Below are positions 12,909 through 24,046 of a stretch of DNA of 64,000 nt, in pieces; position 1 is the stretch's first letter; each line of letters begins with the position of its first letter. Source of the DNA: a virus; IMG/VR virus record IMGVR_UViG_3300044957_000763, positions 372,001 through 436,000 of that record; one strand, written 5' to 3'. The notes below the pieces were generated by a model, which made no database searches, had not been told where the DNA came from, and saw only the letters and a program-made list of their open reading frames with translations. A program made the translations under genes and the position numbers.

Positions 12909-12970
12909 CACTTGCATTATGTCACGAATGCGTGGTACAATGCAAACCTTAATCAAGAAAGGTGAAAAAC

Positions 12971-14161
12971 ATGAACGAAACGAACGAACTTGGAATGCAA
13001 ATTATTGACGGAATCCCGGTTTTCGGTGAGCCAGTCGACCAGGGCGCTCTTGAACAAATCAAGAACGCTCAAGGATACTATGCGTCAAAAGTTGCGCTAA
13101 TGGCTGACCATCACTTAGGTTTTGGTGTGCCTATTGGCGGCGTTGTTGCATATCCAGAGCATGTTTCACCTAGCGGAGTCGGTTTCGACATTGCTTGCGG
13201 AAACAAGGCTGTGTTGACTGATGCTAAGTCGGGCAAGACCAAGGCACAAATCCATCGTATTATGGATGATGTGTTCAAGAAGATTTCCTTTGGAGTTGGT
13301 CGTGTAAACGAAGAAGAGGTCGAGCACGAGTTGTTCGATGACCCTTTGTGGAACGAGTTGCCAGTTTTAAGGGCGAACAAGGATAAGGCTGTTTCTCAGC
13401 TTGGGACTGTTGGTTCTGGAAACCACTACGTGGACATTTTCATTGACGAACAGGACAGAGTTTGGGTTGGTGTCCACTTTGGTTCTCGTGGTCTTGGTCA
13501 CGCAATCGCGACCGAGTACATTGAAATCGCAAAGTCCAAGGGATACTTCCAAGATGGAATCAGTGTGTTGCATCAGAGTTCTGATGCAGGCGAAGAGTAC
13601 ATCAAGGCTATGGACCTAGCAGGACGCTATGCTTACGCTGGCCGCGACTGGGTTTGTGCTAAGGTTGCAAAAATCATCCATGGAGACATTGTTGATGAAG
13701 TACACAACCATCACAACTTCGCTTGGAGAGAAACTCACGGTGACGAGGATTTGTGGGTAGTCCGAAAGGGCGCAACTCCTGCATTCCCAGGTCAGCGCGG
13801 GTTTGTAGGTGGTTCAATGGGCGAAAATGCCGTGATTATTGAGGGTATGGGTGGAGACCTTGCGGAACACACCTTGCACTCAACTGTTCACGGTGCTGGA
13901 CGTGTCATGAGCCGTACTCGAGCCAAGGGTAATAAGAAGAAGGGTATTCAGGGAGAAATCTCTGAGCGTGCTATGCAAAAGTGGCTAGACGAGGCCGGCG
14001 TTGTTCTTCGAGGCGGTGGTGTTGACGAGGCACCACAGGCATACAAGAGACTGACCGACGTTCTCGACCATCACGGTGACAGCATTCGTGTTGTCCACAC
14101 TTTGAAGCCAATCGGCGTAGCTATGGCCTCTGCTGATACCAAGGACCCTTACAAGGACTGA
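12971..14161 (+). CDS. rtcB: RNA-splicing ligase RtcB
   Basis: 396 residues. Catalytic landmarks of RtcB are all visible: PSGVGFDIACG (metal-binding Asp and Cys), GSGNHYVD, VHFGSRGLGH, HHNFAW and the guanylated His in STVHGAGR. The enzyme joins 2',3'-cyclic phosphate and 5'-OH RNA ends using GTP and Mn2+, repairing tRNA or rRNA cut by host nucleases. Start ATG 12971 has a good Shine-Dalgarno (aaggtg) and is preferred over GTG 12962. The gene is divergent from DUF1385. A phage copy fits repair of tRNAs cleaved by abortive-infection anticodon nucleases. Confidence 0.93.
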   Translation: MNETNELGMQIIDGIPVFGEPVDQGALEQIKNAQGYYASKVALMADHHLGFGVPIGGVVAYPEHVSPSGVGFDIACGNKAVLTDAKSGKTKAQIHRIMDDVFKKISFGVGRVNEEEVEHELFDDPLWNELPVLRANKDKAVSQLGTVGSGNHYVDIFIDEQDRVWVGVHFGSRGLGHAIATEYIEIAKSKGYFQDGISVLHQSSDAGEEYIKAMDLAGRYAYAGRDWVCAKVAKIIHGDIVDEVHNHHNFAWRETHGDEDLWVVRKGATPAFPGQRGFVGGSMGENAVIIEGMGGDLAEHTLHSTVHGAGRVMSRTRAKGNKKKGIQGEISERAMQKWLDEAGVVLRGGGVDEAPQAYKRLTDVLDHHGDSIRVVHTLKPIGVAMASADTKDPYKD

Positions 14162-15090: not shown

Positions 15091-15119
15091 TCTAAATCGT
15101 GCGCGAGTGCGACAAAATG

Positions 15120-15128
15120 TGCGATAAT
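15120..15128 (+). promoter_or_regulatory. Extended -10 TGCGATAAT before prs
   Basis: TGCGATAAT at 15120-15128 reads as TGn plus GATAAT. The prs ATG at 15138 lies 9 nt downstream, giving a leader of only a few bases. The core TGCGATAA recurs at 26679, 40399, 47663, 54466 and 60655, always in a gap before or inside the start region of a plus-strand gene. Confidence 0.6.
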
Positions 15129-15137
15129 AGAAGCGAC

Positions 15138-16106
15138 ATGGCTAATGGCAACGATATCCGTATTTTTTGTGGAAATGCTCATCGCAGTCTTGCTGAAGAA
15201 GTGGCATCCAGTCTTGGTGTGCGTATCGGAAAAATGACATGTAGTCGCTTTAGCGACGGAGAAATTCGAGTAACCATTGATGAGTCGGCTCGAGGAAATG
15301 ATGTTCACATCATTCAACCGACATGCTCCCCAACGAATGACAACCTGATGGAACTGCTCATTATTCTTGATGCGTTCAGAAGAGCCTCAGTAGATGAGAT
15401 TAATGTCGTTATTCCATATTTCGGATACGCTAGACAGGACAAAAAAGTCAAGCCAAGAGAGCCAATTACTTCTGCCCTTGTTGCGGATTTAATTCAAACT
15501 GCTGGTGCGACCAGGGTTATGGTTGTTGATATACATGCCGAACAGATTCAGGGTTTCTTCAGAATCCCAGTAGACCACTTGTATGCAGGCCCAGTAATTG
15601 TCGAATATTACGAGCAAGCTGGTTATGTGGAACGAGACGATATTGTTATCGTTTCTCCAGATGTTTCTGGTGTTGCGCGTGCTAGAAATCTTGCAGAAGC
15701 ACTGCGTGCACCAATTGCAATTATTGCTAAGCGACGGCCAGACGCAAATGTTGTGGAAATCGTTGAAGTAATTGGTAATGTTGCTGGCAAGCATTGTATT
15801 ATGATTGACGACATGCTGGACACTGGTTCTACAATTTTAGCGGGGGCCGAGGCGTTGATTAAGAACGGAGCCACGAGTGTAGAAGTTGCTGTAACCCATC
15901 CAGTACTCAGTGGCAATGCATCTCAGAGACTTCAGGAGTCAGGCGTAATTACACGTGTTACCTGTCTAGACACCGTTCCAATTCCATTTGACAAACGTTT
16001 TGACAAACTCAACATACTGTCTGTTGCTCCGCTAATTGGAGCCGCAATTCAAAGACTACACGACAATCAATCTGTCAGTGAGTTGTTTAGTAAGTGGCGA
16101 CAGTAG
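15138..16106 (+). CDS. prs: Ribose-phosphate pyrophosphokinase (PRPP synthetase)
   Basis: About 322 residues. Clear class I PRPP synthetase: FSDGEIRVTIDESARGNDVH, the ATP loop region YFGYARQDKKVKPREPI, DIHAEQIQGFF, IVSPDVSGVARAR, the catalytic Lys-Arg in IIAKRR, and the PRPP loop DDMLDTGSTI. It makes PRPP from ribose 5-phosphate and ATP for nucleotide and NAD synthesis. Frames open at GTG 15099 and ATG 15117 too, but 15138 fits family N termini and the upstream -10. The gene lies near a nicotinamidase-like gene and nadE, so PRPP for NAD synthesis is a reasonable reading. Confidence 0.93.
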   Translation: MANGNDIRIFCGNAHRSLAEEVASSLGVRIGKMTCSRFSDGEIRVTIDESARGNDVHIIQPTCSPTNDNLMELLIILDAFRRASVDEINVVIPYFGYARQDKKVKPREPITSALVADLIQTAGATRVMVVDIHAEQIQGFFRIPVDHLYAGPVIVEYYEQAGYVERDDIVIVSPDVSGVARARNLAEALRAPIAIIAKRRPDANVVEIVEVIGNVAGKHCIMIDDMLDTGSTILAGAEALIKNGATSVEVAVTHPVLSGNASQRLQESGVITRVTCLDTVPIPFDKRFDKLNILSVAPLIGAAIQRLHDNQSVSELFSKWRQ

Positions 16107-16137: not shown

Positions 16138-16914
16138 ATGGGCGACGCTAAGGTAGGCATACTTTATGTGCATGGAATAGGCACACAAGGTCATAATTTC
16201 GCAGACAGAGACATATCTCTGATGAAAAAGATGTTAGGAAAAGATGCCGAGCATGTTGCATTCTCGTCTTATTGTTGGCAGTCATTAATTGAACCCAGAG
16301 AACGCGAGCTGATGGAAAAGAATCAACGCGTGCGTTGGAGATTTTTGCGGAAATTATTGGCATCTTATGGCGGAGATGCATTGTGCTATCAGCCACGTCA
16401 CGGACTTGACTCATTTTACAAAGAGGCACACAAAGGACTTGATAATGCTCTGAATATTCTGCATCACAAAATGGCCAAGGACGGTAAACTGATTATTGTT
16501 GCACACAGTCTTGGAACCATAATTGTAAACAACTTCATATGGGATTACCAAAACGAGGGTTCTGTAGGCTCGGCCGCATATGAGCCCGAAGGTCGTGCAC
16601 TGGATAGATTAAGGGTGCTGTATACACTTGGTTCTCCGCTTGCTATTTGGGCAATGAGGTTTCCTGATGGCGGCAAACCGATTGATTTACCAAATCAGTG
16701 TTTGTGGAGAAACATCTACAGCCCTTCTGATATTATTGGCTGGCCAATTCGCACAATCAATTTTTCATATATGACACTGCCTGGCTTGCGTGATTTCAGA
16801 ATGTGGGTGGGTGGAATTTTGACCATGTGGAATCCTGGTTCACATCTTGCTTATGCTCGAAGTAAAAAGGTTATGAAAATGATTGCAGACGACGTGTGGC
16901 GTCTTATGCAATAA
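16138..16914 (+). CDS. Alpha/beta hydrolase (esterase/lipase-like)
   Basis: 258 residues. The first strand and oxyanion region VGILYVHGIGTQGHNF and the nucleophile elbow VAHSLGTIIVNNF (Ser in H-S-L-G) define an alpha/beta hydrolase similar to bacterial lipase-like proteins. A late His (GSHLAYARS) is a candidate for the catalytic triad. No signal peptide, so it likely acts in the cytoplasm or on the membrane from inside. Substrate unknown. It could serve lysis, host membrane change or small-molecule hydrolysis. Confidence 0.82.
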   Translation: MGDAKVGILYVHGIGTQGHNFADRDISLMKKMLGKDAEHVAFSSYCWQSLIEPRERELMEKNQRVRWRFLRKLLASYGGDALCYQPRHGLDSFYKEAHKGLDNALNILHHKMAKDGKLIIVAHSLGTIIVNNFIWDYQNEGSVGSAAYEPEGRALDRLRVLYTLGSPLAIWAMRFPDGGKPIDLPNQCLWRNIYSPSDIIGWPIRTINFSYMTLPGLRDFRMWVGGILTMWNPGSHLAYARSKKVMKMIADDVWRLMQ

Positions 16915-16934
16915 ACTCGTTGAGTACAAGCATT

Positions 16935-16957
16935 TGATACCATGTTTGTGGTATCAT
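16935..16957 (+). promoter_or_regulatory. Hairpin plus extended -10 (TGGTATCAT) before 16964
   Basis: An 8-bp stem (tgatacca / tggtatca) followed by TTTT may end the hydrolase transcript. Its right arm also spells TGGTATCAT, an extended -10 whose hexamer (16952-16957) ends 6 nt before the ATG at 16964. Terminator and leaderless promoter appear to be merged in the same bases. Confidence 0.55.
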
Positions 16958-16963
16958 TTTGGT

Positions 16964-17647
16964 ATGTTGAAAAACATCGGTGCGGTCAATGATATGCTCC
17001 CAAGCTCGCTTCAGGGCGAGTATCGCGCGTTTGTTTTTGTGCACGTTGGTTCGGACGGTTGTGTTTTGCACATATATAGCGGACCAGAACTTCAAAACGT
17101 AAATGAAAAGTACTTAGAGGATTGTGTTTTCATTGGTGGCATGCATCGCCTCAATCCAGACAGGATGACAATTATTAAGTCTTTGGTGGCGGTTCCGGTG
17201 CGAGAAACATCGACTCATGCCGGCATTGTCCTTGCACAAGAATGCATTTCTGAAAGCCATTCAAGGTCTACTAACTTTGGATTCAACGAACCAATCTTGC
17301 TTGAGCATTCTGACAAATACCGCATCAATATTGCCGGACGAAATTCCAATCCAGAATTCTTCAGTCAGTGCCCGTCGTTTCAAGAGGTCGACAACCAACA
17401 TTGTCCATTTTTATTGTTTGAGATTGAATCAAAGCAGTCTGAAGTGCGTATCATACACAATCCACAACAATTACTTCAATATCCCAATTACACTCAGGTA
17501 ATGGTTCAGTGGCCTGGTAAATGGTCTAGTCACTTTTTTACATTCAAAATAGGTAAATTGTTGGATTATATGTGCGACAATAATATAGACGTGTCAGCTT
17601 TGGGCACCAAGAACTTTTCATCTGGACAACAAGGATGCAATACTTAG
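16964..17647 (+). CDS. Hypothetical protein, 227 aa, next to SpeD
   Basis: Unrecognised. Mixed alpha/beta with no Cys motif or membrane segment. The ATG 16964 follows the TATCAT -10 by 6 nt; the frame extends upstream but that part lies in the previous gene and hairpin. The 3' end overlaps speD by 13 nt, so the two are coupled. I looked for the aminopropyltransferase (SpeE) signature and did not find it. Confidence 0.75.
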   Translation: MLKNIGAVNDMLPSSLQGEYRAFVFVHVGSDGCVLHIYSGPELQNVNEKYLEDCVFIGGMHRLNPDRMTIIKSLVAVPVRETSTHAGIVLAQECISESHSRSTNFGFNEPILLEHSDKYRINIAGRNSNPEFFSQCPSFQEVDNQHCPFLLFEIESKQSEVRIIHNPQQLLQYPNYTQVMVQWPGKWSSHFFTFKIGKLLDYMCDNNIDVSALGTKNFSSGQQGCNT

Positions 17648-18036
17648 GTCATCATATCGTTCTCGATTTTTACGACTGCAACCCCACAGTACTGGCTGAT
17701 TGTGGTGCTATGCGCGACATCATGCGCGAAGCGGCCGTTCGTGCAGAGTGCAATGTTGTTGGTGAATACTATCACGAATTTGAGCCACACGGGATTAGCG
17801 GATGCACTATTATAAGTGAGTCACATATTACTTTACACGCTTGGCCAGAATACGGATATGTGGCCGTTGATTTCTTCTATTGTGGTGATTCTGTTTTATC
17901 AGACCTGGCTGTTGATTACATGAGTGAAATGTTTCAATCAAAGCAATTTGACAGGCATGAATTAGGTCGTGGAGCAATGAATAATTCCGGGGTTTTTGGT
18001 TCAGTTTTGATTGCTGGCGACGACTTTGACAAATAA
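17635..18036 (+). CDS. speD: S-adenosylmethionine decarboxylase proenzyme
   Basis: 133 residues, the usual length of the small bacterial type. The self-cleavage and catalytic motif SESHITLHAWPE is at 61-72, with Ser63 expected to become the pyruvoyl group after cleavage behind Glu62; His64 is also conserved. Cys in SGCTI and the Tyr-rich YVAVDFFYCGD segment follow, the latter with the catalytic Cys. The enzyme makes decarboxylated SAM, the aminopropyl donor for spermidine. The host would have to supply putrescine and, unless a gene lies outside the window, spermidine synthase. Polyamines neutralise DNA charge and matter for packaging of large genomes. Confidence 0.92.
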   Translation: MQYLGHHIVLDFYDCNPTVLADCGAMRDIMREAAVRAECNVVGEYYHEFEPHGISGCTIISESHITLHAWPEYGYVAVDFFYCGDSVLSDLAVDYMSEMFQSKQFDRHELGRGAMNNSGVFGSVLIAGDDFDK

Positions 18037-18103: not shown

Positions 18104-18922
18104 ATGAATGTACATCTTCTGATTATTGACCCGCAGAATGACTTCTGCGACCCAACAACAGGCGCATTGTACGTTGGCGGTGCAGACCAGGACATGAATC
18201 GTCTGGCGGATATGATTGACCGGCTAGGTTCTTCAATTTCTGACATTCACGTGACCCTGGACTCGCATCATCTTAACGACATCGCCCATCCTAATTGGTG
18301 GCGAGACAGCGCAGGTAATCCTCCTTCTCCATTCACCATCATCACAGCGGCGGATGTTGAAAACCAAGTCTGGACTACTACAGTCCCTGGACTTTATCGT
18401 CGTTCGCTAGAATATGTTCGGTCTCTTGAATCGAACAACCGATACCCTCTGTGTATCTGGCCTCCACACTGTCTCATTGGCACTAATGGTGCGGCAATCT
18501 GGCCTAGGCTTATGGACAGCCTCAACAATTGGGCAGGCAGTGAAAATTGCACTGTTGATTTCGTAACTAAGGGTTCTAACGTGTTTACCGAGCACTACTC
18601 GGCTGTCAAGGCAGACGTTCCAGACCCGCTTGACCCCACAACTCAAATCAACACTCGCTTGATTGACGTTCTACAAAGTGCAGATATGGTTGCGATTGCT
18701 GGAGAAGCGTCTTCTCACTGTGTTGCCAACACAGTTCGAGATATCGCAGACGCATTCGGCAATGACAGCTATGTTAGAAAGCTGGTGTTCATTTCTGATG
18801 CATCTAGCCCAGTTACAGGCTTTGAGCAATACAGTGATTCGTTCATCAAGGAGATGACCGCACGTGGTATGCAAATCAGCAACACAGCCGATTTCCTTGT
18901 TCGACAACTAACCACGGTTTAA
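18104..18922 (+). CDS. Nicotinamidase / isochorismatase-family hydrolase
   Basis: 272 residues, typical of longer PncA-like proteins. The catalytic triad can be placed: Asp9 (LIIDPQNDF), Lys in VTKGSN and Cys in GEASSHCVANT. Metal ligands are in DSHHLNDIAHP (Asp53, His55 or His56, His62), which supports nicotinamidase rather than isochorismatase. The reaction would be nicotinamide to nicotinic acid and ammonia, the first step of the deamidating NAD salvage route. NadE, the last step, is encoded 4 kb downstream. No nicotinate phosphoribosyltransferase or NadD is visible in the window. Confidence 0.82.
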   Translation: MNVHLLIIDPQNDFCDPTTGALYVGGADQDMNRLADMIDRLGSSISDIHVTLDSHHLNDIAHPNWWRDSAGNPPSPFTIITAADVENQVWTTTVPGLYRRSLEYVRSLESNNRYPLCIWPPHCLIGTNGAAIWPRLMDSLNNWAGSENCTVDFVTKGSNVFTEHYSAVKADVPDPLDPTTQINTRLIDVLQSADMVAIAGEASSHCVANTVRDIADAFGNDSYVRKLVFISDASSPVTGFEQYSDSFIKEMTARGMQISNTADFLVRQLTTV

Positions 18923-18931
18923 GGAGAAACA

Positions 18932-19675
18932 ATGCCAAAAATCTTTGACCCAACTCTAGAAAACCACAACTTGGCAACAAGCCATTACGGCTTCTCTGCC
19001 GAGAGCATCAACAACCTTGGTGCAACCGAGTACACACTTGTCACTGTTGCCGCTGACACAAGTAGCAGTGTGACTGGATTTGCAAACGAAATTGAAGAAT
19101 GCCTAAAAAACATTCTTCGGGCATGTCGTTACAGTCCCCGCGCTGACAACCTCATGATTCGCGTTGTCGAATTCAATGACAAAATCAACGAACTTCATGG
19201 ATACACTCTTCTTGAGAAGTTGAATGAAGACGATTATAATGGAGCGATTCGTCCCAGGGGCAGCACCGCACTGTACGACGCTTCATACAACGCAATTGAG
19301 GCCGCGAGTACTTATGGAAAGCACCTCAATGACATGGACTACACTGTGAATGCTATTGTCGTAGTACTGACAGATGGTGAAGAGAACTCAAGTTCAATTC
19401 GCTCAGCACAGATGATTGCTGACCAGGTGTCCAACATCACTCGAACAGAGACACTAGAATCAGTAAGGACAATTCTTGTTGGTCTCAATGCCTCGTCACA
19501 ACTGAACTCGTATCTGACCGACTTCAAGGACAACGCGAAGTTTGACCAGTATGTTTCAGTTCAGGATGCCAGTCCAAAAAGCATCGCTAAGGTCGCAGAC
19601 TTTATCTCTCGCAGTATCTCTGCTCAGAGTCAGAACCTCGGAACAGGCGGGCCTTCTGTGCCGTTGACATTCTAA
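18932..19675 (+). CDS. VWA-domain protein (TerY-like)
   Basis: 247 residues, essentially one von Willebrand A domain. The metal site is visible as DTSSS (VAADTSSSVTGF), a Thr in RGSTALYDA and an Asp in VVVLTDGEEN. It has a good ribosome binding site (aaggag) 9 nt after the nicotinamidase stop. It is followed by PP2C and kinase genes, the exact composition of the TerY-P phosphorylation triad (VWA, PP2C, protein kinase) known from bacterial stress and conflict islands. Confidence 0.85.
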   Translation: MPKIFDPTLENHNLATSHYGFSAESINNLGATEYTLVTVAADTSSSVTGFANEIEECLKNILRACRYSPRADNLMIRVVEFNDKINELHGYTLLEKLNEDDYNGAIRPRGSTALYDASYNAIEAASTYGKHLNDMDYTVNAIVVVLTDGEENSSSIRSAQMIADQVSNITRTETLESVRTILVGLNASSQLNSYLTDFKDNAKFDQYVSVQDASPKSIAKVADFISRSISAQSQNLGTGGPSVPLTF

Positions 19676-19681
19676 CTATAC

Positions 19682-19709
19682 TAGAGTGCCGACACAAGTC
19701 GGCACTCTA
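19682..19709 (+). terminator. 12-bp hairpin between VWA and PP2C genes
   Basis: Perfect 12-bp stem (tagagtgccgac / gtcggcactcta) with a 4-nt loop, just after the VWA stop. No T-run follows, so it may act as a partial terminator or mRNA-stability element. The core gagtgccg...cggcactc is shared with the strong terminator at 57231. Confidence 0.55.
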
Positions 19710-19721
19710 ACTAACACTCCA

Positions 19722-20588
19722 ATGCCAGCAGATTCTTATTACACGAAAGGTTGGACACACACTGTTTGCCAGGATTATGCGATTCATGGTTCTCTGGTTA
19801 CTTTGTATGACAACGAAAATACACGCATGGACTACGGTCTGGTGTCTGATGGTTGCTCGTCAAGTGATGACACAGATATTGGTTCGCGTTTAATGTTGCG
19901 TTCGGCATATTGTCATTCCGGTTGTATGCAAAATATATTGCGTTGTGTAGATGCTGAGGGCGGTAACTACATGGGCAATGCTAATGGGCTGTGGACTGAT
20001 TTTGCACACAAGACGGCGATGTACGCCAGTAAATGGGTTGGTGAAATGGAGCTAGACCAAACCGCATTAGATGCTACGCTTTTGGCCGCGTTTGCAGATA
20101 ACAAGTGGGCGTGTACGGCAAGCTACGGCGACGGTTCTCATATTGTCTGTAGAAGGGTTGGAACAGAGCGAGTTATTGAAATCGAACACATTGATTTCTT
20201 GGCCAACGCGCCGCCATATCCGGTTTATTTGACAGATGGAGAGTTACAAAGCGCGTTTGCCAATTACATCGGAAACACCAAGCGTGTTATGCGCTGGACA
20301 TCCAAGGGTGAATTCGAAGAAAGATTAGGCGGTGAACCAAGCCATGTTCTCGTTTATCCCGCAGAAGATGTCGAGTTTGTCGCCGTGGTTTCAGATGGTG
20401 TTTCTTCATTTGGAGACATTGGGTGCTTTGAGGTTATTCAGGCATTCACAGCATTCAGAAATTATGCTGGAGAATTCGTCAAAAGACGGATGATGCGAGC
20501 TCTTGACGAATACCAGAAGAGTCAGCACTTCCCATCTGACGATGTTTCTATGGCTGTTGTTTACTCACGATACGGTCATGCAGTATAA
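19722..20588 (+). CDS. PP2C-family serine/threonine phosphatase
   Basis: 288 residues from ATG 19722, placed after the hairpin; the frame upstream (GTG 19686) runs through the stem and is unlikely. Metal-binding motifs of PP2C are visible: YGLVSDGCSSSDDTDIGS near the start and FVAVVSDGVSSFGD in the middle, plus a late DDVSMAVV segment containing the third Asp. It should dephosphorylate targets of the kinase encoded next, with which it overlaps by 11 nt. Confidence 0.83.
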   Translation: MPADSYYTKGWTHTVCQDYAIHGSLVTLYDNENTRMDYGLVSDGCSSSDDTDIGSRLMLRSAYCHSGCMQNILRCVDAEGGNYMGNANGLWTDFAHKTAMYASKWVGEMELDQTALDATLLAAFADNKWACTASYGDGSHIVCRRVGTERVIEIEHIDFLANAPPYPVYLTDGELQSAFANYIGNTKRVMRWTSKGEFEERLGGEPSHVLVYPAEDVEFVAVVSDGVSSFGDIGCFEVIQAFTAFRNYAGEFVKRRMMRALDEYQKSQHFPSDDVSMAVVYSRYGHAV

Positions 20589-22239
20589 AGTTGGTTCCAA
20601 GAATATTACCCTCTCCAACAAAGACCTAAAGGGTTCTGGAGGAGAGGGCAACGTATATGTCAAGGGTAGTTATGCTTACAAAATCTACCATGACCGCAAC
20701 AAGATGTTGTCTCTTGGAAAAATTCAAGAATTGTCCGCAATCCAAGACCAAAGGGTCATTAGACCACTAGAAGTTGTTTCTGATTCCCATGGTCCAGTTG
20801 GGTACAGTATGGTTGCAACACCACAAGATTCATGTGTGTTGTGTCAATATTTTCCACGTGCATTTCGAACTAGGTTCAGCCTTGATAGTGCTTTTTCAAA
20901 CGCACTCGTAGAAGAAATTCGTTCAGGTGTCGAAAACATCCACAAATCAGGCGTGTTGTTAGTAGACCTTAATGAAATGAATTTTCTTTTTAGGACACAG
21001 AGCCCAGACGTGTTTTTTATTGATGTTGACTCATACCAAACACCGCATCATAACGCTACGGCGTTGATGGAGAGCGTTAGAGACAGGCACGCCAAACCAA
21101 ATCAGTTTAATCTTGGCACAGACTGGTTTTCGTTTGCTATTGTTAGTTTTCAGATTTTTACCGGCATTCACCCTTACAAGGGCAAACACCCAAGCCTCAA
21201 GACCATGGATGAGAGAATGCTTGCAAACATTTCTGTACTAAACCCTTCTGTTAGCGTTCCAGGTGCATGTTTGCCATTTGATGTAATACCAACCAATTAT
21301 CGTGATTGGTACGAAAAGGTTTTAGAAAAGGGTGAGCGTTGCTCACCACCAACATGCACTACTTCACCAGTGGTTGTTCTAAAGACTGTCAGCCTTGCTG
21401 GTGGAGGAAAGATTCGTATTATCCATGTCATGCAAGCACAATCAGATATCGCAGATTACTACAATGGCGCATATGTCTTCTCTGGCAACGTATGTGATTC
21501 ACATGGAATTAGAAAGGCGTCTAATCTGATTGGTGCGGTACGATTGTTCGGAACCAAGACTGGGACTGCGGCGGCTTATGTAAAGTACGGTATCCTTCAT
21601 ATAGTAGACCTGAATACGGGAAATGATATTGATAGCGGGATTGCATGTAGTTCTATGTCAGTGTGTAATGACAAGCTGGTGTACCAGTCTGGTGAATACC
21701 TTTATGCGGCCGATTTGATGCCAGCCGGCGCAAATATCTTATTCACCAAAAAACAAATAGCTAACGTATTGCCACTGGGCACACAACTTTATGACGGTGT
21801 TGCAATGCAAGATTTGCTCGACGCCAAATATGCAACGATTATTTCTAAACACGGCACCCATCAAATCAAGCTAACTGAGATTTCTGGCCATCGTGTAATC
21901 TCGGCAAAATGCCTTGGCAAAGTGCTTGTTGTCATTGCAGAGTCTAATGGTATTTACAATCGTCATGTCTATAGATTTGACGATACGTTCCAAAAATATG
22001 ACCACAGAATTGTGGACGACGTTGGTATTTGTGAAGCTAACTTTTGTGTGTTGGACAGTGGTGTAACGCTACTTATGTGTAATGACGATACACTTGAAGT
22101 GTTCTCGTCTAATATTCATTCTAGTAGTATTAGCACGGTGAATGACCCGGCAATCAACAGTAATTGCAATCTGTTTTCTGTTGGGTCTAAGGCAATGTAC
22201 ATTTACGGAGACAAGGTTGAACAGTTCACCATGTCTTAG
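20578..22239 (+). CDS. Protein kinase of the TerY-P type with C-terminal repeat region
   Basis: 553 residues. Gly-rich loop at 19-26 (GSGGEGNV), Lys35 in AYKIYH, catalytic loop VDLNEMNF with Asp130 and Asn135, and the metal loop FIDVDSYQT with Asp149. DLNxxN and D-x-DSxQ forms are typical of the kinases in TerY-P triads. The segment FSFAIVSFQIFTGIHPYKG matches the F-helix region. Residues about 270-550 hold beta-strand-rich repeats that could form a sensor propeller. The start ATG 20578 overlaps the PP2C gene; longer frames upstream lie in that gene. Confidence 0.83.
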   Translation: MQYKVGSKNITLSNKDLKGSGGEGNVYVKGSYAYKIYHDRNKMLSLGKIQELSAIQDQRVIRPLEVVSDSHGPVGYSMVATPQDSCVLCQYFPRAFRTRFSLDSAFSNALVEEIRSGVENIHKSGVLLVDLNEMNFLFRTQSPDVFFIDVDSYQTPHHNATALMESVRDRHAKPNQFNLGTDWFSFAIVSFQIFTGIHPYKGKHPSLKTMDERMLANISVLNPSVSVPGACLPFDVIPTNYRDWYEKVLEKGERCSPPTCTTSPVVVLKTVSLAGGGKIRIIHVMQAQSDIADYYNGAYVFSGNVCDSHGIRKASNLIGAVRLFGTKTGTAAAYVKYGILHIVDLNTGNDIDSGIACSSMSVCNDKLVYQSGEYLYAADLMPAGANILFTKKQIANVLPLGTQLYDGVAMQDLLDAKYATIISKHGTHQIKLTEISGHRVISAKCLGKVLVVIAESNGIYNRHVYRFDDTFQKYDHRIVDDVGICEANFCVLDSGVTLLMCNDDTLEVFSSNIHSSSISTVNDPAINSNCNLFSVGSKAMYIYGDKVEQFTMS

Positions 22240-22252: not shown

Positions 22253-24046
22253 ATGCAAGTAAGTATGGCGCAAATCAGAGTAAAATCTGGTGACATCGAA
22301 GGTAATTTAAGTCGCATTCTGGGTGCGCTTGAAGAGGTTCCTGAAAGCACAGATGTTGTCCTGTTCCCAGAAATGTGTATCTCTGGATACAACGTTGGAT
22401 GTTTGTTTGAATACGAACAATTCATCCAAGATTGCACTAATGCGGTTGAACTTGTTGCTCAGGCGGCCAAATCAATCAGAGAAAATCTGATTGTGGTTGT
22501 TGGTGCTCCGCGATTTGCAAACAATCCTATTGACGACCAAGGAAATGTTCGCCTTCACAATTCGGCTTTCGTTATCAAGGGTGGACAGGTCATCCATATT
22601 TACGACAAACACATTCTTGCTAACGACTATCATCACGAAGACCGCAAATATTTTGTGCCTGGCACATCATCGCCAGTTGTTCCTGGGCATCCGCTTGCTG
22701 TTCTTATTTGCGAAGACATTTGGCACAAGGAAACCCTCGAGAGCCTGACTGATAACATTCGTTCTGCCGAACTCAATGGGCAACCAAGGGTAAACGAGCT
22801 TCTGGTACTTAACTTTTCGTATTACTGCGCAGACAAGCTCCCTTCACGACACTCAAACGCACAGCTTATTGCCACAAATGCTGACGTAAACGTGTATTAC
22901 TGCAATGCAATTGGTCTTGGAGATATTAGTAAAAACATTCTTGTTTATGACGGAGCAAGTTTTGTTATATATTCTGATGGAGGCAGACTTGATGCACCAA
23001 GATACACTTCAGGTGTATATCACAATGGCAATATGTGGCCGAACTCGTACCCATCGTGGGAAGAGGAAACCACTGAGTCTTTGGTCTATGCTGTGCGATA
23101 TGCGTGGGAAGAATTTGGTCTTAAATGTGCGCAAGTACACCTGTCAGGTGGTGTAGACAGCAGTGTGGTTGCTGTAATTGCCGTAGAGGCGCTTGGAAAG
23201 AAGAACGTTACATTTGTTACCAATCCAGGCGAACACACGTCTAAAACGACTCTCAAGCTGGCAAAGCGGGTTGCTCAAGGGTTAGACGTTCCTTTGACAG
23301 TATTGCCTGTCAAAACCATGGAAATCGCACTTGGTAAAGTATTCGCGAAGATTGGTAATGTTGCTTCAATCACCAAGTCGACAATTTCTGCCGTTGGCCG
23401 CACTGTGGTTGGTCTTGCAATGACAAATCAGCAATTTGCAGACGGTAAACCCACTGGTATTTTGGCAACTGGAAATCACACTGAGAACTATCTTGGTTGG
23501 TGCAATTTCCATGATATTGGAAGTATTGGCGTCATGCAACCTATTGGAGACTTGACAAAGACTGAACTTTTTGCTCTTTGTCGATACATTAACTCCATGA
23601 ACGAGACCGACCTAATTCCAAGAGAATTGATTGACGGTCGTGTTAGGCCGATGGCAGAGCTGGCTGATACAGACGTAGACCCGTTCGACTACTATCTGTG
23701 TTCTGGTATTTGCGCCGAAATGCTTAGGGCGCGGACTACACCCAGGCAACTTCTGGAGCAGTTCGACTCAAAAACCTTAAATACGAATTCATTCCCAGGT
23801 TCTGAGGTGTACGAATATAGTCGTGCGCTATTTGCGTCTACTTGTGAGGATGTTGCGCGACGCGCACAGCGGTCGGTATACAAGTCTGCGCAGCACGCAC
23901 CAGTATTGGTGTTAAGTAAGAGAACTCGTGGTTTTAGTGCAAGAGAGACACTTATCAATCATTACAAGTGGAGTTCTGCCCGTCCAACCGGAAGAAGCAC
24001 TAGTGCAAGCGGCCGAGGCTCAGATAAGTCCATCCCTGTTGTTTGA
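22253..24046 (+). CDS. nadE: Glutamine-dependent NAD+ synthetase
   Basis: 597 residues with two domains. The N-terminal nitrilase-type glutaminase has its catalytic Glu40 (FPEMCISGY), Lys119 (YDKHIL) and Cys153 (LICEDIWH). The C-terminal ATP-pyrophosphatase domain has the P-loop SGGVDSS at 298-304 and the GILATGNHTENYLGW segment. It amidates nicotinate adenine dinucleotide to NAD+ using glutamine and ATP. The start follows a -10 by 6 nt; the longer frame upstream overlaps the kinase gene. The last 47 nt overlap the minus-strand UDP-glucose dehydrogenase gene. Confidence 0.93.
   Translation: MQVSMAQIRVKSGDIEGNLSRILGALEEVPESTDVVLFPEMCISGYNVGCLFEYEQFIQDCTNAVELVAQAAKSIRENLIVVVGAPRFANNPIDDQGNVRLHNSAFVIKGGQVIHIYDKHILANDYHHEDRKYFVPGTSSPVVPGHPLAVLICEDIWHKETLESLTDNIRSAELNGQPRVNELLVLNFSYYCADKLPSRHSNAQLIATNADVNVYYCNAIGLGDISKNILVYDGASFVIYSDGGRLDAPRYTSGVYHNGNMWPNSYPSWEEETTESLVYAVRYAWEEFGLKCAQVHLSGGVDSSVVAVIAVEALGKKNVTFVTNPGEHTSKTTLKLAKRVAQGLDVPLTVLPVKTMEIALGKVFAKIGNVASITKSTISAVGRTVVGLAMTNQQFADGKPTGILATGNHTENYLGWCNFHDIGSIGVMQPIGDLTKTELFALCRYINSMNETDLIPRELIDGRVRPMAELADTDVDPFDYYLCSGICAEMLRARTTPRQLLEQFDSKTLNTNSFPGSEVYEYSRALFASTCEDVARRAQRSVYKSAQHAPVLVLSKRTRGFSARETLINHYKWSSARPTGRSTSASGRGSDKSIPVV

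Follow-up and report, generated by a model that had tools for sequence, protein, structure and literature searches.

The window analysed here, a stretch of 64,000 nucleotides from a giant phage's genome (positions 372,001 to 436,000 of IMG/VR record IMGVR_UViG_3300044957_000763), carries three adjacent plus-strand genes encoding a VWA protein, a PP2C-family phosphatase and a Ser/Thr kinase, all with intact active sites. A first-pass annotation had described this triad and its motifs correctly; however, it overlooked the gene immediately upstream, a nicotinamidase gene with which the unit begins. The conserved unit consists of four genes rather than three: PncA (nicotinamidase)–VWA–PP2C–kinase.

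The first gene (18104–18922, plus strand) encodes a PncA-like member of the isochorismatase superfamily. The Asp-Lys-Cys catalytic triad (D9, K156, C206) and the Asp-His-His metal ligands (D53, H55, H122) are present in all 94 cassette proteins, and in all 10 solo members that occur without the VWA–PP2C–kinase triad; the cassette protein also carries a WPxHC motif. Sequence matches in the PDB are nicotinamidases (yeast Pnc1, 1e-9), as are all 17 of the best PDB fold matches to the predicted structure (pLDDT 90). An identity as isochorismatase was rejected on the basis of residues, motif and fold matches. The protein falls short of the NCBIfam equivalog threshold for nicotinamidases (NF008623; 44.5 against 174 bits) and insertions lengthen it to about 270 amino acids, as against about 190–215. 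As judged from sequence, the cassette PncA is a divergent nicotinamidase subfamily with predicted enzyme activity.

Among 369 class members, 10 of 12 carriers of this PncA subtype lack the triad, as do the carriers in virus records G013 and G025; the enzyme can thus do without the switch proposed below. In some genomes the triad-less subtype neighbours NAPRTase, NadE or NrtR, which supports a real nicotinamidase role. A serine two residues past the catalytic lysine (S158) is found in 90% of cassette proteins compared to 30% of solo proteins. Only this residue and H49 stand out as cassette-specific, and with just 10 solo sequences compared, the claim of cassette-specific residues was dropped.

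The second gene (18932–19675, plus strand) matches Pfam VWA at 5e-6 and has an intact MIDAS (D42-x-S-x-S46, T112, D148), of which D42, S46, T112 and D148 are invariant among 16 relatives. Its Ser-rich C-terminal tail bears a conserved motif (SxSISxQSQxLGTGGPSxxLTF), and the hhalign match to the VWA protein of the R478 TerY region (96.5%) runs through this tail; resemblance to E. coli YegL is weak (20%). The PP2C-family phosphatase (19722–20588, plus strand; PF13672, 3e-6) has the full set of metal-binding aspartates, with D30, D55-G56, D149, D237 and D285-D286 invariant. Its ATG start at 19722 is better placed than the alternative GTG at 19686, because the gap between the VWA and PP2C genes is occupied by a perfect 12-bp plus-strand hairpin with an ACAA loop (19682–19709; z -7.7). 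A role for this hairpin in RNA processing or attenuation is possible. It is one of a phage-wide set of 42 hairpins of the same type across 464 kb, and is absent from the related locus L102; as a conserved regulatory part of the unit it was rejected on both counts. No riboswitch or known RNA was found around the operon, a match to mir-126 being below cut-off and attributable to chance.

The kinase gene (20578–22239, plus strand) starts at an ATG that overlaps the PP2C stop codon; the listed TTG start at 20503 is probably spurious. Its kinase domain (about residues 1–260) contains GGEG, K35, E51, DLNEMN (130–135) and DVDSYQ (149–154), and G21–G24, K35, E51, D130, N135 and D149 are invariant among 16 relatives. 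Although the protein misses the Pfam Pkinase cut-off (22.8 against 31.7 bits), hhalign to E. coli YegI (98%) secures the homology. The C-terminal part (about residues 275–553) comprises some 280 amino acids of beta strands which AlphaFold and Foldseek predict to form a propeller or WD40-like fold; in these models the kinase carries a beta-propeller-like domain, and neither a zinc ribbon nor an OB fold. The beta-rich region had been put forward as a possible sensor: its character stands, and a sensory role is one that such a domain could fill.

Conservation and spread of the unit

All four genes are present in 18 of 18 viral loci found via the kinase, a recurrence that places the triad, whose absence from relatives would have told against the first-pass reading, far beyond chance. 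Searching via PncA recovered the full unit in 70 of 80 loci, most of the other 10 being cut by contig or locus ends. The order PncA–VWA–PP2C–kinase is kept in 84 of 88 complete loci, always on a single strand, and in the four permuted loci all four genes nevertheless remain together.

Bacteria of many phyla, a Rhodoferax type among them, also carry the unit, which is complete in 21 of 39 loci from bacterial or archaeal assemblies. These counts contain at least one viral locus, since L102, initially a candidate bacterial cassette, proved to be a relative of the phage under study; further loci on short MAG contigs, such as one from a Lokiarchaeota MAG (L115), may be viral also. Where the kinase lies apart from PncA, the genome encodes the same PncA subtype elsewhere (8 of 8), adjoining the VWA gene in those inspected.

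All 103 cassette kinases group together on a branch (support 98/96) that excludes YegI and the R478 kinase, in a tree that has very long branches and only these two TerY-P/YegI-type references; this goes part of the way, but not decisively, towards placing the kinase outside the TerY-P clades, the outcome that the first-pass annotation had named as damaging to its reading. At least seven changes between virus and bacterium are forced on the same tree, with gene order kept across them.

A relative of the phage under study was found joined to an Armatimonadota chromosome contig; the description of the operon as that of a lytic-type phage is not supported. The four-gene combination was not described in the literature searched, which did not include Gao 2020 and Anantharaman 2012.

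NAD genes in the phage and around related cassettes

Thirteen base pairs past the end of the kinase gene begins a glutamine-dependent NAD synthetase, NadE (22253–24046, plus strand; CN-hydrolase and NAD synthase domains; TIGR00552, 65.8 against a cut-off of 63.65). Upstream, in the same gene run, lies a PRPP synthetase (15099–16106, plus strand; TIGR01251, 377 against 113 bits), the source of the NAPRTase co-substrate, which holds the same position in L102. The phage has its own NAPRTase (TIGR01514, 419.7 against 269.6) and NadD (TIGR00482, 113 against 112.5), 160 kb and 124 kb distant from the cassette, respectively; RtcB is also encoded. Judged by these profile scores, and with PncA counted by residues and fold rather than by profile cut-off, the phage encodes a complete Preiss-Handler route: PncA, NAPRTase, NadD and NadE.

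Linkage to NAD genes extends to other cassettes. Of the 21 loci in cellular assemblies that hold a full cassette, 18 have NrtR, NAPRTase, NadE or NadD within 10 kb. In large virus records, NadE lies within 10 kb in 12 of 22 (1.6 expected, P = 4e-9) and NAPRTase in 8 of 20 (1.6 expected, P = 6e-5), related phages being counted as independent in both tests. Several cassettes have NADAR genes nearby, and in a Thiotrichaceae genome a solo kinase adjoins an NrtR-like and a NudC-like gene. No NAD gene lies within 10 kb in 34 of 66 viral full-cassette loci.

Proposed control of NAD salvage and rival explanations

The make-up of the unit and its linkage to NAD genes are matters of observation, and from them we infer control by phosphorylation: PncA, the TerY-like VWA protein, PP2C and the propeller kinase probably constitute a module that places NAD salvage under reversible phosphorylation. 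The kinase propeller, the VWA protein or both would monitor NAD state, by way of NAD itself, ADP-ribose or nicotinamide, or would bind a partner; the VWA tail, PncA or both would be driven to opposite phosphorylation states by kinase and PP2C; and the resulting state would switch the deamidation of nicotinamide to nicotinate, with which the Preiss-Handler route begins. In phages the module may keep up or rebuild NAD against the drain imposed by host NADase defences, NAD-dependent ligase and RNA repair, and in bacteria it may give fast control over and above NrtR repression. A bolder version, to which we give slightly less than even weight, is that of a dedicated Ser/Thr circuit for NAD supply, common to and exchanged between huge phages and bacteria, in which kinase, PP2C and VWA protein turn the co-encoded nicotinamidase on and off within minutes and independently of transcription, with S158 or the VWA Ser-tail as switch site.

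It is also conceivable, if rather unlikely, that the module serves NAD repair against host defence, nicotinamide released by TIR or SIR2 NADases being returned to NAD while the triad acts as a phage alarm, an infection-specific switch that turns salvage on when NAD falls. Consistent with this, one phage combines the full Preiss-Handler set with PRPP synthetase and RtcB, NADAR genes lie close to several cassettes, and phage-borne NAD rebuilding is known: NARP1 lets phages restore NAD from what NADases leave behind (PMC12774641), and genes for NAD synthesis are known from jumbo phages (PMC7824862). The routes differ, NARP1 using Adps/Namat and the described jumbo sets nicotinamide phosphoribosyltransferase and NMN adenylyltransferases, whereas the phage here has the four-step deamidating route together with a phosphorylation module. 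Against this reading, the same module occurs in NrtR-type operons on bacterial chromosomes and is therefore no phage-only device. Bacterial cassettes stand beside the enzymes of NrtR-controlled salvage operons (PncA–NAPRTase–NadE) and the same ADP-ribose-responsive repressor family; to such an operon the cassette adds a kinase/phosphatase/VWA module, which was found in none of the NAD-metabolism literature searched.

Co-location alone does not prove shared function, and the triad could act on host or phage factors unrelated to NAD, being merely carried beside NAD genes. The viral loci that have no NAD gene nearby and the existence of PncA without the triad fit such an arrangement, but it is made improbable by the order kept across virus and bacterium, by the retention of PncA in all eight split genomes and of all four genes in permuted loci, and by the solo kinase that adjoins an NrtR-like gene.

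Still less probable is a TerY-P-type anti-phage or superinfection system, as first proposed, with PncA a metabolic effector or immunity part. Its three-domain logic is identical: in TerY-P triads (the R478 ter region; CoCoNuT-associated; the anti-phage type of Gao et al. 2020) VWA, PP2C and Ser/Thr kinase likewise stand side by side, and the VWA protein shares the MIDAS and Ser-rich tail. TerY-P-like modules whose kinase carries an OB fold are, according to a passage of PMC11090510 citing Gao 2020, validated stand-alone defences. Yet TerY-P kinases end in a zinc ribbon (TerY-P) or an OB fold (Gao type) (PMC11090510), where the cassette kinase has a beta-propeller-like domain, and the cassette kinase, on its separate branch, barely matches the R478 kinase by hhalign (11.6%). 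The cassette has a nicotinamidase as fourth gene, and its neighbours are NAPRTase, NrtR, NadE and NadD rather than ter, restriction or toxin genes. PADLOC gave weak kinase matches to PD-T4-6/mad6, a point in favour of the defence reading, but no TerY match for the cassette proteins, though E. coli YegL itself reaches only E 0.03; over 229 class genomes its TerY model gave one marginal match, and so yielded no reference set. The likeness to TerY-P holds for the arrangement of the triad and for the VWA protein; that the unit is TerY-P proper is not supported. YegI, PphC (YegK) and YegL of E. coli are also encoded near one another, PphC matching the cassette PP2C (hhalign 86%) and the YegI motifs DVNxxS and DSDSFQ resembling those of the cassette kinase; unlike the cassette, the YegI locus has no nicotinamidase or NAD genes nearby, and YegI falls off the cassette branch.

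That the PncA-like enzyme acts on another amide, through a different isochorismatase-superfamily reaction, would accord with its sub-cut-off score and insertions but is highly improbable given its six catalytic and metal residues, WPxHC motif, best sequence and fold matches to nicotinamidases, and NAPRTase, NadE and NrtR as neighbours.

To our knowledge, TerY-P-like triads have so far been without a known output. Here the logic of the triad is linked, in phages and bacteria alike, to a single enzyme whose reaction can be measured (nicotinamide to nicotinate) and to a defined pathway, so that what such a triad does can be tested directly. NAD is a metabolite attacked by many anti-phage systems. 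If control of salvage by reversible phosphorylation is true, then a regulated four-step route would join the known ways in which phages handle NAD, and bacteria would gain a post-translational layer above NrtR.

Genes and active sites of the unit

The window (372001-436000 of a virus record of 478,840 bp) encodes, at 18932-22239 on the plus strand, the VWA protein, PP2C phosphatase and Ser/Thr kinase reported by the first-pass annotation. Their active sites – the VWA MIDAS (D42/S46/T112/D148), PP2C D30/D55/D149/D237/D285-D286 and kinase GGEG/K35/E51/D130-LNEM-N135/D149 – are intact, with no variation among 16 relatives. The PP2C start should be corrected to ATG 19722 and that of the kinase to ATG 20578. 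In its C-terminal half the kinase has a predicted beta-propeller with WD40-like matches (pLDDT mostly 70-90, pTM 0.50).

Directly upstream of the VWA gene, 9 bp away on the plus strand, lies a PncA-like gene of the isochorismatase superfamily (18104-18922). Nicotinamidases are the closest solved sequence relatives of its product and make up the top 17 Foldseek matches of its AlphaFold model (pLDDT 90); 94 of 94 cassette relatives retain catalytic D9-K156-C206 and metal-site D53-H55-H122. PncA is better conserved among relatives than the kinase (identity ~47-61% versus 32-40%). That nicotinamidase, kinase, phosphatase and MIDAS VWA look active is established at the level of sequence.

The cassette's gene run includes an RtcB RNA ligase (12962-14161), and the RNA-repair gene RlaP lies near the cassette of another phage (L002:500-1597); NAD salvage and RNA repair genes are often close together. 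Between a PRPP synthetase upstream of the cassette (15099-16106) and a SpeD-like AdoMet decarboxylase (17635-18036) are two proteins without family matches (16138-16914 and 16883-17647), the first of which, with a GxSLG motif, reads like an alpha/beta hydrolase. Perfect hairpins (11-25 bp, loop 3-8) occur at 19682-19709 and at 41 other sites in 464 kb of this phage, far above chance frequency. Some share a common GAGTGCCG or AAAAARGCCG motif, and they are possibly phage-wide terminators or RNA-processing sites.

Distribution in viruses and cells

The true unit is four genes, PncA included, and not the triad alone. PncA-VWA-PP2C-kinase was found in 18 of 18 loci in a kinase-based scan of viral contigs and in 70 of 80 loci in a PncA-based scan. 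The scans, including that of species genomes below, lean towards cassette loci because their alignments were made from such loci. Contig or locus ends cutting the cassette account for most of the ten incomplete loci; in one (L045) the kinase is rearranged or decayed, and from two records (G013, G025) it is absent altogether. Among 88 complete, de-duplicated loci, each with its genes on a single strand, 84 have the order PncA-VWA-PP2C-kinase; the other four are permuted and retain all members. Extra genes may interrupt the cassette: a second VWA protein in one locus (L012), and in another, from a phage, an FtsH/M41-like protease between PP2C and kinase (L007:6224-7966), with ClpB D2-small and peptidase M41 domains.

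The cassette is not only viral. A kinase-based scan of species genomes gave 39 loci, 21 with all four genes within the flanks (Acidobacteriota, Rhodoferax and relatives, Patescibacteria-type candidate phyla, Myxococcota, Verrucomicrobiota, a cyanobacterium and others), several 'bacterial' loci being short MAG contigs that are possibly viral. In Rhodoferax (L130) the neighbours are ordinary chromosomal genes (DUF3348, DUF2894, Fic, HDOD). In eight genomes the kinase and PncA are separated; all eight have the PncA subtype elsewhere (E down to 1e-125), and in the four inspected it adjoins the VWA gene. Of the 369 genomes in one gammaproteobacterial set, two alone have the kinase, both with the PncA subtype; ten more carry the PncA subtype alone, in three beside NAPRTase (L245, L247, L248) and in one of them with NadE and NrtR too. 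Since the subtype occurs alone, and beside NAPRTase in three genomes, the enzyme can work alone. No triad was found among scanned genomes lacking the PncA subtype. We conclude that the triad is an add-on to the PncA enzyme.

NAD genes around the cassette

In the clustered flanks of all loci, NAPRTase ranks first among the neighbours (32 loci), followed by the Nudix-related NAD repressor NrtR (31; NrtR_WHD match, with the NCBIfam ADPR-responsive repressor model matched below cut-off), NadE (22) and a NadD-type adenylyltransferase (13). At least one lies within ~10 kb in 18 of the 21 full loci of cellular assemblies. Of 30 large cassette-bearing virus records, 23 encode NAD synthase, 21 NAPRTase and 24 a CTP_transf-like protein. 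Under uniform placement within each genome, 1.6 virus records would be expected to have NadE within 10 kb of PncA; 12 of 22 do (P 4e-9). For NAPRTase 8 of 20 do, where 1.6 are again expected (P 6e-5). Both P values are optimistic because the phages are related to one another.

In the window NadE (22253-24046) lies directly behind the kinase; NAPRTase (record position 230247; TIGR01514, 419.7 bits against a cut-off of 269.6) and NadD (266071; TIGR00482, 113 against 112.5) are encoded elsewhere in the record. Read from sequence, the phage's Preiss-Handler route (PncA, NAPRTase, NadD, NadE) is complete. In Thiotrichaceae a kinase without adjacent PncA adjoins an NrtR-like gene and a second gene, which from its sequence we read as NudC-like (NAD diphosphatase). 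Several of the largest phages have, immediately 5' of NadE and the cassette, a highly divergent NAPRTase-like protein of ~500 aa (Pfam E 0.0015; L009, L011, L016 and L017, e.g. L016:2088-3578).

Known systems and a proposed mechanism

Among known systems the cassette comes closest to TerY-P triads and to E. coli YegI-PphC-YegL. By hhalign the kinase matches YegI (98%) rather than the R478 kinase (11.6%), and the PP2C matches PphC (86%) above its R478 counterpart (63%), whereas the VWA matches R478 (96.5%) rather than YegL (20%). The definition of TerY-P kinases includes a zinc ribbon or an OB fold (PMC11090510), neither of which the cassette kinase has; we therefore call the cassette TerY-P-like rather than a TerY-P system proper. 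In a kinase tree of 114 rows all 103 cassette kinases fall on one branch (98/96), apart from 11 non-cassette kinases; viruses and cells are intermixed, supported branches forcing at least seven label changes.

The window's kinase sits next to that of L102, on an Armatimonadetes MAG contig (G031:C5 1-1363254; JAFDWS010000002.1). Over its first ~535 kb this 1.36-Mb contig is collinear with the window's phage, inverted and circularly permuted, at a mean protein identity of roughly 45-65% per 20-kb bin; the GC of this part is 0.53, and that of the remainder, without synteny, 0.61. The collinear part can be read as a huge provirus in an Armatimonadota chromosome or as an assembly joint, and it points towards a host of Armatimonadota type. 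Close to the border of the phage-like segment lies a tmRNA gene (C5:525122-525479); the segment also holds ~50 tRNA genes (L217, L218 and L221; C5:420001-460000 and 500001-520000) in amino-acid-wise runs (Leu, Ser, Thr, Pro), one called Pyl with a CTA anticodon.

Jumbo phages are known to carry NAD-making genes (PMC7824862), and NARP1 has been described (PMC12774641), both without the four-gene module; the main text of a huge-phage survey mentions neither NAD nor kinases. We found no description of the module in the open-access literature, where absence is no proof of novelty.

We propose that kinase and PP2C target the VWA protein and/or PncA and would thereby set the level of nicotinamide deamidation. 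Two candidates for phosphorylation are the Ser-rich tail of the VWA protein (SxSISxQSQxLGTGGPSxxLTF), which is very conserved and aligns with a VWA of the R478 ter region, and PncA S158, two residues past the catalytic lysine and present in 90% of cassette PncA versus 3 of 10 solo PncA. The predicted beta-propeller would suit sensing or partner binding. A phage might thus maintain NAD against NADase defence and for its own NAD use, while bacteria may gain a fast layer of control above NrtR.
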